From contig VGXU01000005.1 in assembly GCA_016873215.1 (NCBI GenBank), positions 1 through 64,000 on the forward strand: a stretch of DNA of 64,000 nt, given 5' to 3'. Below, in pieces: positions 3,145-34,839 of the stretch; positions within the stretch are counted from its first letter, which is position 1; every line of letters begins with the position of its first letter. The position numbers and the translations under genes were made by a program. This DNA comes from Planctomycetota bacterium (lineage in GTDB: Bacteria; Planctomycetota; Phycisphaerae; Sedimentisphaerales; Anaerohalosphaeraceae). The notes under the pieces are model-generated. The model was not told where the DNA came from and made no database searches. It was given only the letters and a program-made list of their open reading frames with translations.

Positions 3145-4048
3145 TTTAAGGTGTCAGATATTTTCCGCCCAATTTCCTCCGCCCTGAGCGGACCTGTCTT
3201 GAGCGGAGCCGAAAGAATCAACCGGGCCTTTTATTTTCTTCAATTTTAAAATCCTCAATCGTCAATCGAAAAACCTGTCCTTCCTAGCCTTGTGCGAAGA
3301 AGGATCAGCAATCGTCAATTTTTAGCCCCGCCTCCCGGCGGATTTCTTCTCCCTGTATCCCTGCATACCTATATACCTGCGTTTCGCCCGTTGCTGATGT
3401 GCCCATATTATACAATCCCCCTGCGATTTGACAACCCTCTATTTTTCTTTTTCCGGACAATCAGGACTGTCTTTGCTTTTTTCCCCCTCCTTGCGTCTCT
3501 TGCACCTCTTGCGTCTTTAGCGTTAAAAAATCGGTGTTAATCCATGGTTTATACTGCTGATTTCTCAATTCTAAATTCTGCATTCTCAATTCCCCACCCA
3601 TAAGACCTATTAGACCCATTAGTCCTATCCCGCTTTCTTTTCGTGTTTTTCGTGGTACCCCCACCTTTTTTAATTAGTCCAGCCTTATAGACTGTCCTCA
3701 ATTTTGCCTTTCTTGTCCGTCATAGCTTTAGCGACGACGGATGATTTTTAACTTTTGCCCTTTGTCTTTGTTCCATCTCTGCATACCTGTATATCTACAC
3801 ACCTTTTGTCTCTTGCCTTCTCCCTTTTTTCTCTCTGTGACAATCTGCGTCAATCTGTGGTTTATGTTATTTTAACACAATTGCGATTTCACTATCCTGC
3901 TATCCTTAGAAATTCCACAAATTTTTAACCCCATTCCACATAAAGACTTACAGTTTTTTCGCCCCGCAAAAATCACGAATTTTCGACACCGGCACGCAAG
4001 TCCAGCCCCTATATAGGAGGCGCTTATTTTGCGCCTCGTGGTTCTGTC

Positions 4049-4068
4049 ATTCCGGCGAAGGCCGGAAT
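4049..4068. repeat. Perfect 8-bp hairpin repeat (REP-like)
   Basis: ATTCCGGC and GCCGGAAT flank a 4-base GAAG loop. It is followed by CCAG, as in the short palindromic units widespread in bacterial genomes. A second stem, AGGCGC/GCGCCT, lies just upstream around 4018-4036. No T-run follows, so it is not a typical terminator. Confidence 0.6.
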
Positions 4069-4444
4069 CCAGAAACTCAGAACTAAAAATATGGACCTTT
4101 TTTGAAGGAGTATGACGTGTCATAGTACTGTGTAAGATCAGCCCGGCCGCAGGCCGCCTGCCCCGCCGTCTCGTCCTGTCGTAGTTTTAACGAAGACGGA
4201 AGTTTTAACTAAGGCGGGTCCTTAATTTTGCCTTTTTACTTTTACCTTTTGCCTTTGCGTGGCATCTCGCGGATGCCGCGCGCATCCACTGCAAACAGGG
4301 GTCAAAAAACTGCTCCTAAAAACCCAATATAAACCCATTTATAACCCAAATATGAAAAAACCAATGACAATAAAATTGCTTAAAATCATCGCCGCCAATC
4401 ACTTGCAACTCGCGATCTCGCGCAGCAAAACTCCGCATCTTGTT

Positions 4445-4479
4445 CGTCATTCCGAACCCCTTGCGGGTGAGGAATCCGC
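4445..4479 (+). repeat. Dispersed repeat, GTCATTCCGAAC type (copy 1)
   Basis: The unit reads CGTCATTCCGAACC, then CCTTGCGGGTGAGGAATCC. A near-identical copy lies at 34754-34787 on the same strand, and a reverse-complement copy lies inside the hydrolase gene at 13165-13198. Confidence 0.8.
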
Positions 4480-4755
4480 TTATTTCAGCCGTCGGCCCTG
4501 CCGACTCCTTAATTTTGATTTTTGCACTTTGATTTTTGATATCCAAAAAATGGTTCACCATCATTTTTTGGAAAAGCAAACCCAATTTAAAAATCGATAA
4601 CTTATTACACGGAAAGGACTAATCTAAAAATCACCCAAAAAAAGCAAACCCAAACAAACCCATTAAGCCATTTGTGGATAACTTTTCCAGTACGCTGAAC
4701 GCTGCCCGCTTAGCTGCCTTCGGGTTTGGTGAGTGAAATCATCGGGGCGGGGAAA

Positions 4756-12260: not shown

Positions 12261-12809
12261 ATGAAAAAGATGATGGTAATCAGTTTGGCGGTGGTGGCGA
12301 TGTTTGCGGCGGCATGTCAGATGTTCGACTGCGGCAAAGTTAAGGCGAGTTCAGCGGTGGTTAAACCGCTGCGGGTGGGCGTCTATGATTCGCGGTGTAT
12401 TACCATAGCGTATGTGCATTCAAAATTCAGCAAAAATGAAATACAAAAATTGTTTGACATCGTACATAAGGCGGAAAAAGAAGGAGATGTCAAAACCGCA
12501 CAGAGTACAAGAGAGATTGCCGAGTATATGCAGAAAAAAAGACATTCACAGGGGTTCGGCACGGCCCCGGTGGGTGAACTGCTGGAGCCGATTAAAGACG
12601 AAATGTCGAAGGTTGCCGAGCAGGCCGGGGTGGATATGATTGTCAGCAAATGGCAGGTGGATTATCAGGCAAAGGACGCTCATTTTGTGGATGTGACGGA
12701 CGCGATGGCGGCATTATACAATCCGGATGAAAAGACGCTGAAAATCATCGAAGAAATGAAAAAGCAGCAGCCGATTGCGGAAGAAGAACTTTTAAAGATG
12801 AAAGACTGA
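12261..12809 (+). CDS. Exported protein or lipoprotein, unknown function
   Basis: The protein has 182 residues from ATG 12261, preceded by GGAAAG; a TTG at 12243 would add six residues without reason. The signal peptide ends at AAAC (about residue 19), a possible lipobox. The mature part opens with a strand RVGVYDSRCITIAYV, continues as charged helices, and ends in a Lys/Glu-rich tail (KKQQPIAEEELLKMKD). The VYD-start followed by helices is reminiscent of OmpH/Skp-like periplasmic proteins, but similarity is low. It starts 21 bases after the preceding lipoprotein gene and is followed by a terminator, so it ends the sigma-54 operon. Confidence 0.75.
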   Translation: MKKMMVISLAVVAMFAAACQMFDCGKVKASSAVVKPLRVGVYDSRCITIAYVHSKFSKNEIQKLFDIVHKAEKEGDVKTAQSTREIAEYMQKKRHSQGFGTAPVGELLEPIKDEMSKVAEQAGVDMIVSKWQVDYQAKDAHFVDVTDAMAALYNPDEKTLKIIEEMKKQQPIAEEELLKMKD

Positions 12810-12817
12810 TGAGGTCA

Positions 12818-12840
12818 TTGTAAATTGACAATTGTAAACT
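12818..12840 (+). repeat. Dispersed repeat, CAATTGTAAATTG type (copy 1)
   Basis: CATTGTAAATTGACAATTGT is built of two partly inverted units. A related copy stands before the lipoprotein gene at 20112-20138. Confidence 0.7.
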
Positions 12841-12858
12841 GTAAAATACAGCAGGCAG

Positions 12859-12886
12859 GGTGGGCTTCTTGGCCCACCATTTTTTT
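12859..12886 (+). terminator. Rho-independent terminator ending the radical SAM/lipoprotein operon
   Basis: GGTGGGC and GCCCACC form a perfect 7-bp stem around a 6-base loop (TTCTTG), followed by A and seven T. It separates the lipoprotein genes from the hydrolase gene that starts 14 bases later. Confidence 0.85.
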
Positions 12887-12900
12887 AACGAGTGGAATAC

Positions 12901-13974
12901 ATGATTGAAATAGCACAAAACAAAAATGAGATTCAGGTCCGGATGGGCCGGCTGACCGGGCGAAACGGTGCGGTATACTCCGGCGAGATTCAATCGTATT
13001 TTGAGCATTACGGATTGGATTTTCCGGCGGCAAAGCATCATTTGGGCTGGTTTGAAAGCCGGGGTTTAAAACTGGCGGGGCATGTGTGGATGCCGTCCAA
13101 AGTCAAAAGTCAAAAGGTAAAAGGCAAAAGTGTGGACAATCCTGCGGATTGGAAATTTTTAACAGATTCCTCACCCCGCAAGGGGGTTCGGAATGACGAC
13201 CCCTTGAATGATAAGACTGCAATGGTGATTGTTCTGCATGGCTATCTCAATCATACGGGGCAGGTGAAGCATCTGATTGCGTCTCTCTTGGAAAACGATT
13301 TCGCCGTCGGTTCATTTGATCTGCCCGGGCACGGGCTCAGCGAAGGCCTGTCGGCGGCAGTGGGAGCTTTTTCGGATTATACACAGGCGCTGCTGGATTA
13401 TATTCTGACCATCCGGCCGTTTTGCGGCGGGCCTTTGCATTTTGTCGGGTTCAGTACAGGGGCGGGCGTCGGCATAGATTATCTTGTCCATGCCCGCCAA
13501 ACCGTCTTTGACAGGATTATTCTTGCCGCGCCGCTGATTCGCTGGCGGGGCTACTCGGCCTCCAAAGCGACGTATGCCTTCTACCGGGCATTTACCGACA
13601 GAGTCCGCCGGATGCCGCAAAAAAATTCATCCGACAACAATTTTCTTTCCTTTAACCGGAACGACGATTATCTTCATGGGCGGTATGTGGCGCTGGATTG
13701 GGTCAGGGCGCTCTATGACTGGAACGCCCGGCTGGCGGCGGCGACACCCTGTGATAAGGAGGTATTCATTTTGCAGGGCGACCGTGACACCACCGTTGAC
13801 TGGCGGTATAATCTTGGCCTGCTGCGGGCCAAATTCCCCGCCGCGAATGTGCAAATGGTAAAAGGAGCAAGACATGAATTATTCAATGAAAGCATTGAAT
13901 TACGCGAAGACTCTCTGGCGAAGATAACTGTTTGGCTGGCGAAGGAATGTCGGAATTCAAATGAAGTATCTTGA
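12901..13974 (+). CDS. Alpha/beta hydrolase, monoacylglycerol-lipase-like, with an inserted repeat
   Basis: The protein has 357 residues from ATG 12901; a GTG at 12892 is in frame. Seen: VLHGYLNHTG (oxyanion region), DLPGHGLSEG, the nucleophile elbow GFSTGAG (Ser), a late Asp in LQGDRDTTVDW and His in GARHELFNE, which together make a full catalytic triad of the serine hydrolase_4/lysophospholipase kind. Residues 67-102 are encoded by dispersed-repeat DNA (AAAGTCAAAAGTCAAAAGG..., then a reverse copy of the GTCATTCCGAAC unit) that keeps the frame. The insert is Lys-rich and lies just before the hydrolase core. It overlaps the next gene by 14 bases. It probably cleaves lysophospholipids or monoacylglycerols. 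Confidence 0.88.
   Translation: MIEIAQNKNEIQVRMGRLTGRNGAVYSGEIQSYFEHYGLDFPAAKHHLGWFESRGLKLAGHVWMPSKVKSQKVKGKSVDNPADWKFLTDSSPRKGVRNDDPLNDKTAMVIVLHGYLNHTGQVKHLIASLLENDFAVGSFDLPGHGLSEGLSAAVGAFSDYTQALLDYILTIRPFCGGPLHFVGFSTGAGVGIDYLVHARQTVFDRIILAAPLIRWRGYSASKATYAFYRAFTDRVRRMPQKNSSDNNFLSFNRNDDYLHGRYVALDWVRALYDWNARLAAATPCDKEVFILQGDRDTTVDWRYNLGLLRAKFPAANVQMVKGARHELFNESIELREDSLAKITVWLAKECRNSNEVS
13096..13198 (+). repeat. Dispersed repeat tract inside the hydrolase reading frame
   Basis: An AGTCAAAAGTCAAAAGG/TAAAAGGCAAAAG tract (13096-13131) matches, reversed, the TTTTACCTTTTGCCTTTG tract near 4236. It is followed, after about 33 bases, by a reverse copy of the GTCATTCCGAAC repeat (13165-13198). Confidence 0.8.
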
Positions 13975-34753: not shown

Positions 34754-34787
34754 CGTCATTCCGAACTCCTTGCGGGTGAAAAATCTG
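34754..34787 (+). repeat. Dispersed repeat, GTCATTCCGAAC type (copy 3)
   Basis: CCGTCATTCCGAACTCCTTG then CGGGTGAAAAATC. It differs from the copy at 4445-4479 by a few bases and lies 170 bases before the small basic protein gene. Confidence 0.75.
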
Positions 34788-34839
34788 TTTGATTCAGAAA
34801 AATTCCTCTTTTTTATCCCATCAGAATATTAAAATAACA

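Follow-up and report, generated by a model that had tools for sequence, protein, structure and literature searches.

What this locus raises is how DNA of a kind that normally lies between genes came to stand inside the reading frame of a predicted alpha/beta hydrolase, and what this did to the protein. The gene lies at 12901..13974 on the plus strand of the 64,000-nucleotide stretch of planctomycete DNA that was analysed (the window), with a possible alternative GTG start at 12892.

An in-frame insert restricted to one hydrolase

The hydrolase frame comprises 360 codons and is unbroken through the segment in question. Its product scores 96.5 bits against the Hydrolase_4 Pfam model (cut-off 27), and a Foldseek search with its structural model matched human monoglyceride lipase (E 4.4e-19), the monoglyceride lipases being its nearest solved relatives. 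The nearest NCBIfam model, that of the phospholipase BipL (NF052543), gave 210.6 bits, below the curated cut-off of 450. Downstream lies a gene that scores above the model cut-off for acyl-[ACP]--phospholipid O-acyltransferase.

We compared the hydrolase across Phycisphaerae and Sedimentisphaerales (Planctomycetota) in two alignments. The first holds one hydrolase per genome from every matching genome (44) among 98 related genomes searched; the second, gathered with the alignment query, is a wider set of 110 rows in which 80 loci from named genomes were joined to the first 30. Some loci are common to both, for example contig DLFY01000227.1, which is apparently the same as contig 221 of G001. 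In the 44-row alignment, the region of residues 58–115 comprises 58 residues in the window protein and 21 in all 43 other orthologues, so the insert is exactly 37 residues, or 111 nt, long. The wider set gives the same picture, with 49 residues between the conserved P65 and H113 in the window protein vs 12–15 in the other 109 rows. G001, which belongs to the same genus and is the nearest relative with a hydrolase match, lacks the insert.

The sequence-only reading had expected most orthologues to be without the segment, and this was borne out in every other row of both alignments (43/43 and 109/109). Its extent of 13096–13198 (residues 67–102) marked a real insert with too short a span: the 111 nt lie at about 13099..13209 on the plus strand, with ends uncertain by a few bases. 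Its observation that the frame is unbroken was confirmed; in a six-frame check of the insert, only one frame is free of stops, and it is the frame actually used. No target-site duplication was seen at the insert, which speaks against capture.

As the genome is a draft in 123 contigs and contains dispersed repeats, a false insert could in principle have arisen from contigs joined through a repeat. Such a chimera is very improbable here, however: the hydrolase has both its halves, correctly ordered and in one frame, an outcome not expected from joining two loci; the insert is stop-free and a multiple of three in length; and the gene has a single match within its own genome.

The insert is a composite dispersed repeat

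Three modules can be distinguished in the insert. The first is a heptad tract on the plus strand at 13095..13131, with a unit of about GTCAAAA, for which TRF reports a period of 7, 5.3 copies and an 83% match. The second, at 13137..13151 (plus strand), is a small stem-loop, CAATCC-TGC-GGATTG, which the sequence-only reading had missed. The third is a CGTC-tagged hairpin on the minus strand at 13161..13198, the best of 24 genome matches to covariance model R1; the hairpin itself, GTCATTCC...GGAATC, occupies 13165–13197. Its stem consists of 5+5 bp around a 2x2 internal loop, beginning with an A-T and a T-A pair, and closes on a loop of 5 nt. When the window was shuffled 100 times, the 32-nt form of this hairpin never matched by chance. 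As RNA, the whole insert folds in no unusual way (z -0.68 for the plus strand and -1.45 for the minus strand), the hairpin alone on the plus strand being the only case to reach z -2.1, and a search of the region 12800–13500 against Rfam at E up to 1 returned no family.

A 123-nt query covering the insert and its flanks matched 41 places in its own genome, itself included. The best partial matches are 86–91% identical and one near-full-length match is 71% identical; no near-identical source copy was found in this genome, which counts against capture. The covariance model found 24 copies of the hairpin in the genome at E up to 0.01, and in 19 of these the hairpin is followed by about ten bases, a small stem-loop and a T-rich heptad tract, which is the module order that the insert shows on its minus strand. 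This recurring order indicates a single composite element in place of a pair of unrelated repeats; the tract and the reverse-strand copy of an intergenic repeat recognised in the sequence-only reading are both present, but as parts of a single unit. Thirteen of the 19 ordered copies are not independent, since they are members of one nearly identical larger repeat. In the other six, the window copy among them, the stem-loop sequences differ (CAATCC/GGATTG, CAGCCC/GGGCTG, CCGCC/GGCGG and others) and pairing is kept.

The element is normally found between genes. Two intergenic copies of the hairpin lie on the plus strand of the window: one at 4445..4480, with the same kind of stem-loop and a heptad tract downstream to about 4540, and one at 34754..34789, without the small stem-loop and the tract. 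Across the genome, 22 of the 24 hairpins are outside any ORF of 120 aa or more, and of the remaining two, one is in the hydrolase and the other in an ORF of 177 aa that gave no Pfam match above cut-off. A pattern anchored on the tract matched 73 places in the genome vs one for the reversed control, and several tracts begin at, or a few bases from, a stop codon. The hydrolase is the only credible gene among 60 distinct tract contexts, a figure that refers to the loci examined, with identical contexts merged and the other contexts judged by eye. Six further ORFs of at least 150 aa over tract copies (seven of the 60 contexts when the hydrolase is included) appeared by eye to be antisense or readthrough. 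We regard as spurious the other long ORFs over hairpin copies, both here and in relatives; Pfam scans of five of these nine gave no score above cut-off.

The hairpin family is patchy in its distribution: of the 39 genomes of the taxonomic family, 17 carry it, this one included, and the two other genomes of the genus gave no match at E up to 0.001. In G029, the hydrolase orthologue has a CGTC-like hairpin some 100 bases upstream of its frame (contig 115, 6259–6305). Within the window, 3200–4620 is a long intergenic stretch with many short repeat families, several of which have seven-base periods.

We consider it very probable that a composite intergenic repeat was copied into the hydrolase gene of this Phycisphaerae-type genome, that the frame stayed open, and that the protein gained a 37-residue loop. 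The copied unit would have comprised the heptad tract, the small stem-loop, a spacer and the CGTC-tagged hairpin. By chance its length would have been 111 nt and the single frame required would have been free of stops, so that translation would read through the insert. Over a comparable 111-nt stretch at the 24 hairpin copies, 40 of 144 frames are open; by simple arithmetic, therefore, about one random insertion in eleven would keep the frame.

Predicted position of the insert in the hydrolase fold

We examined the place of the insert in an AlphaFold model of the hydrolase, for which the input was a 39-row alignment. The model is a confident lipase fold (mean pLDDT 89.1, pTM 0.89), in which the insert falls between strands 56–65 and 108–112; the segment had previously been placed between an N-terminal cap and the HGYL motif, and its position is corrected accordingly. 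The insert region is modelled as a low-confidence loop containing one short helix, with pLDDT values of 55, 59 and 52 for the residue blocks 71–80, 81–90 and 91–100. The capture would thus have given the hydrolase a loop, probably a flexible one, that joins the second strand of the sheet to the third. In the lipase type of alpha/beta hydrolase fold, the oxyanion residues come after the third strand, so the insert loop, which precedes that strand, should be at the far end of the sheet.

Residues S185, D296 and H325, which we take to be the catalytic triad, are invariant in both hydrolase alignments. Tolerance of the repeat in coding DNA, as proposed from the sequence, finds indirect support in the open frame, in these invariant residues and in the low-confidence loop of the model; an intact frame and conserved residues suggest that the insert may well be tolerated. 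Modelling had been proposed as a check on surface exposure; it returned the loop just described, and the exposure of that loop is our reading of it. The enzyme probably still works, with the loop presumably surface-exposed and neutral.

Two other explanations of the present gene bear on this point. The hydrolase could be a decaying pseudogene in which the insert is merely one lesion, and the large unordered segment that the insert adds would fit such decay. Against this, the 360-codon frame is open and the invariant positions, including S185, D296 and H325, are retained, which makes decay very improbable. Alternatively, the insert could have been adopted as a functional loop, for instance for membrane or partner binding, and kept by selection. 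It is lysine-rich (7/37 residues) and a predicted phospholipid acyltransferase gene lies nearby, so a membrane-facing role is conceivable; but the modelled loop is of low confidence with one short helix, none of the 43 other orthologues shares the insert, and its sequence is that of the repeat. Adoption under selection is therefore unlikely.

Comparison with known repeats and the route of copying

The hairpin of the composite element is most readily compared with the tagged repetitive extragenic palindromes (REPs) of Di Nocera, De Gregorio and Rocco (2013; PMC3733652). There, CGTC- and GTAG-tagged REPs are short palindromes, mostly intergenic and near gene 3' ends, some of which lie entirely within ORFs and encode 20–30 or more residues. 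Those of the CGTC type have an 8- or 9-bp stem that opens with two complementary A/T positions, a loop of 4–5 nt, an unpaired tail that is mostly of the consensus CCA, and a tag that is often TGTC or CCTC. The results of the paper give five phyla with CGTC repeats, without Planctomycetes, and its discussion mentions Planctomycetes for either type of repeat. By this description, the window hairpin resembles the CGTC REPs in its A/T stem start and 5-nt loop, in the unpaired CGTC tag that starts 20 of the 24 copies in its genome (the window copy included; TGTC in several relatives), and in the predominantly intergenic location of those 24 copies. It differs in its stem (5+5 bp around a 2x2 internal loop vs 8–9 bp), in what follows the stem (CTGTT here and CCGCT in the majority of other copies vs a CCA tail), and in its linkage to a heptad tract and a further stem-loop as one composite unit. 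The window hairpin is CGTC-like and is not assigned to the four CGTC families of Di Nocera and colleagues. Elsewhere in the window, at 4045–4071, TGTC-ATTCCGGC-GAAG-GCCGGAAT-CCA fits the published description of CGTC-1 (8-bp stem, 4-nt loop, CCA tail).

The classic case of insertion in frame is that of the Rickettsia palindromic elements (RPEs), described as elements of about 150 nt that lie in frame in unrelated genes and are translated (Ogata and colleagues 2000, 2002, as covered in the review PMC10969869). Compared by these descriptions, the window element stands in frame in one gene; it differs in having only this coding copy in its genome and in not being one large palindrome. Closer to the situation in Rickettsia is the genome G061 (below), where a different repeat occurs in several genes.

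Pieces of the window tract match Nostoc, Anabaena and Allocoleopsis plasmids at 89–94% identity. The heptanucleotide repeats of cyanobacteria are known as short tandemly repeated repetitive sequences. In PMC4679880, these are intergenic repeats, mostly so placed, of TAACTGA heptamers; the window tract shares the seven-base tandem unit and the mostly intergenic location, and differs in being joined to stem-loops and, by prediction, translated.

Copying may have proceeded through single-stranded hairpin DNA, either by template switching during replication or by a Y1-type transposase acting in trans. The genome encodes two Y1_Tnp genes (E 1.8e-27 and 3.0e-13), and in carrying a tetranucleotide tag the hairpin is similar to the substrates of REP systems; the co-occurrence of hairpin repeats and Y1 transposase genes in one genome also recalls the REPIN/RAYT systems. 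Unlike in those systems, the tag is CGTC instead of GTAG and the hairpin of the element is beside neither transposase gene: no CGTC hairpin was found in either transposase locus (L001 and L002, 3.3 kb), the hairpins that adjoin L001 are GTAG-tagged, and Di Nocera and colleagues (PMC3733652) report that CGTC repeats lack an associated transposase. We therefore regard an IS200/IS605-type transposase, rather than template switching, as a possible but doubtful route. At L001 (contig 11 of the window genome, G000), the Y1 transposase gene is adjoined by several hairpins like GTAG-CCACGGGC and GTAG-CCACGGGCGTTAGCCCGTGG, an arrangement reminiscent of a GTAG REP/RAYT unit and distinct from the CGTC hairpins.

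We did not find an instance in Planctomycetota, or the composite element, described in the open-licence literature searched; within that literature, the capture is ordinary in kind, and the element and the phylum are new. Dispersed repeats that encode protein, of which Rickettsia and the intragenic REPs offer the best-known examples, are thereby extended to environmental planctomycetes.

Repeat inserts in related genomes

A second repeat insert was found in the hydrolase of G061, a genome of the same order and a different family. The turn that connects strands one and two is longer by 16 residues in this protein (34 residues vs 17–18 in the other 43), and the DNA of this insert matches 14 further places in G061 (E up to 1). 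The repeat is a stem-loop of about 50 nt (loci L274–L283 and L334–L361). Model R2, built from eight G061 copies and run at E up to 0.1, matches 70 places in G061 and 0–12 in each of the 14 other genomes searched.

We examined 40 of the 70 matches, of which 10 lie in frame within conserved genes, a share that is not an unbiased rate because the copies behind the model were found through a coding copy. Family matches identify the genes for RsmB, homocysteine S-methyltransferase, Ddl, MutL, IleS, GyrA, HolA and FolK; the hydrolase copy was placed by alignment, and a copy in Dtd lies between two stretches of one model. The copies in IleS, GyrA, HolA and FolK are weak matches to the repeat model (E 7.7e-4 to 5.8e-3). 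A further four of the 40 are at domain boundaries or linkers (a second RsmB copy, a GH2 enzyme, a McsA-like protein and an AmmeMemoRadiSam fusion), and the other 26 fall between genes, close to gene ends or in unplaced ORFs. The repeat is read in three reading frames, and its residues fall in, or overlap, gaps relative to solved homologues in FolK, Ddl, MutL, homocysteine S-methyltransferase and IleS. G061 is a stronger lead than the single capture in the window genome.

The evidence leaves us evenly divided on a broader proposal: that in Phycisphaerae-type planctomycetes the entry of stem-loop repeats into housekeeping frames, with translation like that of the Rickettsia RPEs, is active or recently active; that in G061 it reaches core genes (mutL, ileS, ddl, folK, rsmB, gyrA and holA); and that different repeat families invaded the hydrolase on separate occasions, in two lineages or more. 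Since the loop concerned varies with the lineage, the hydrolases would amount to natural insertion mutants, with which one can ask how much new sequence a folded enzyme accepts. They also bear on whether repeats supply raw material for protein evolution, and they carry a warning for annotation, in that lineage-specific loops may be repeat DNA.

Further loops of the hydrolase vary among the relatives. At a third loop, the one following the nucleophile helix, the G049 hydrolase (L362) has an 8-residue insert whose position is also that of a weak hit of the G061 repeat model (E 0.042), from which a third capture in the same gene appears possible. In the G001 hydrolase (L028), a separate insert of about 29 residues precedes the VGFSTG motif; we rejected this as a repeat, its three other matches in G001 all being weak (E 0.06 or worse). 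The hydrolase of G072 (L375) has about 11 extra residues in the same helix–strand loop as that of G049.
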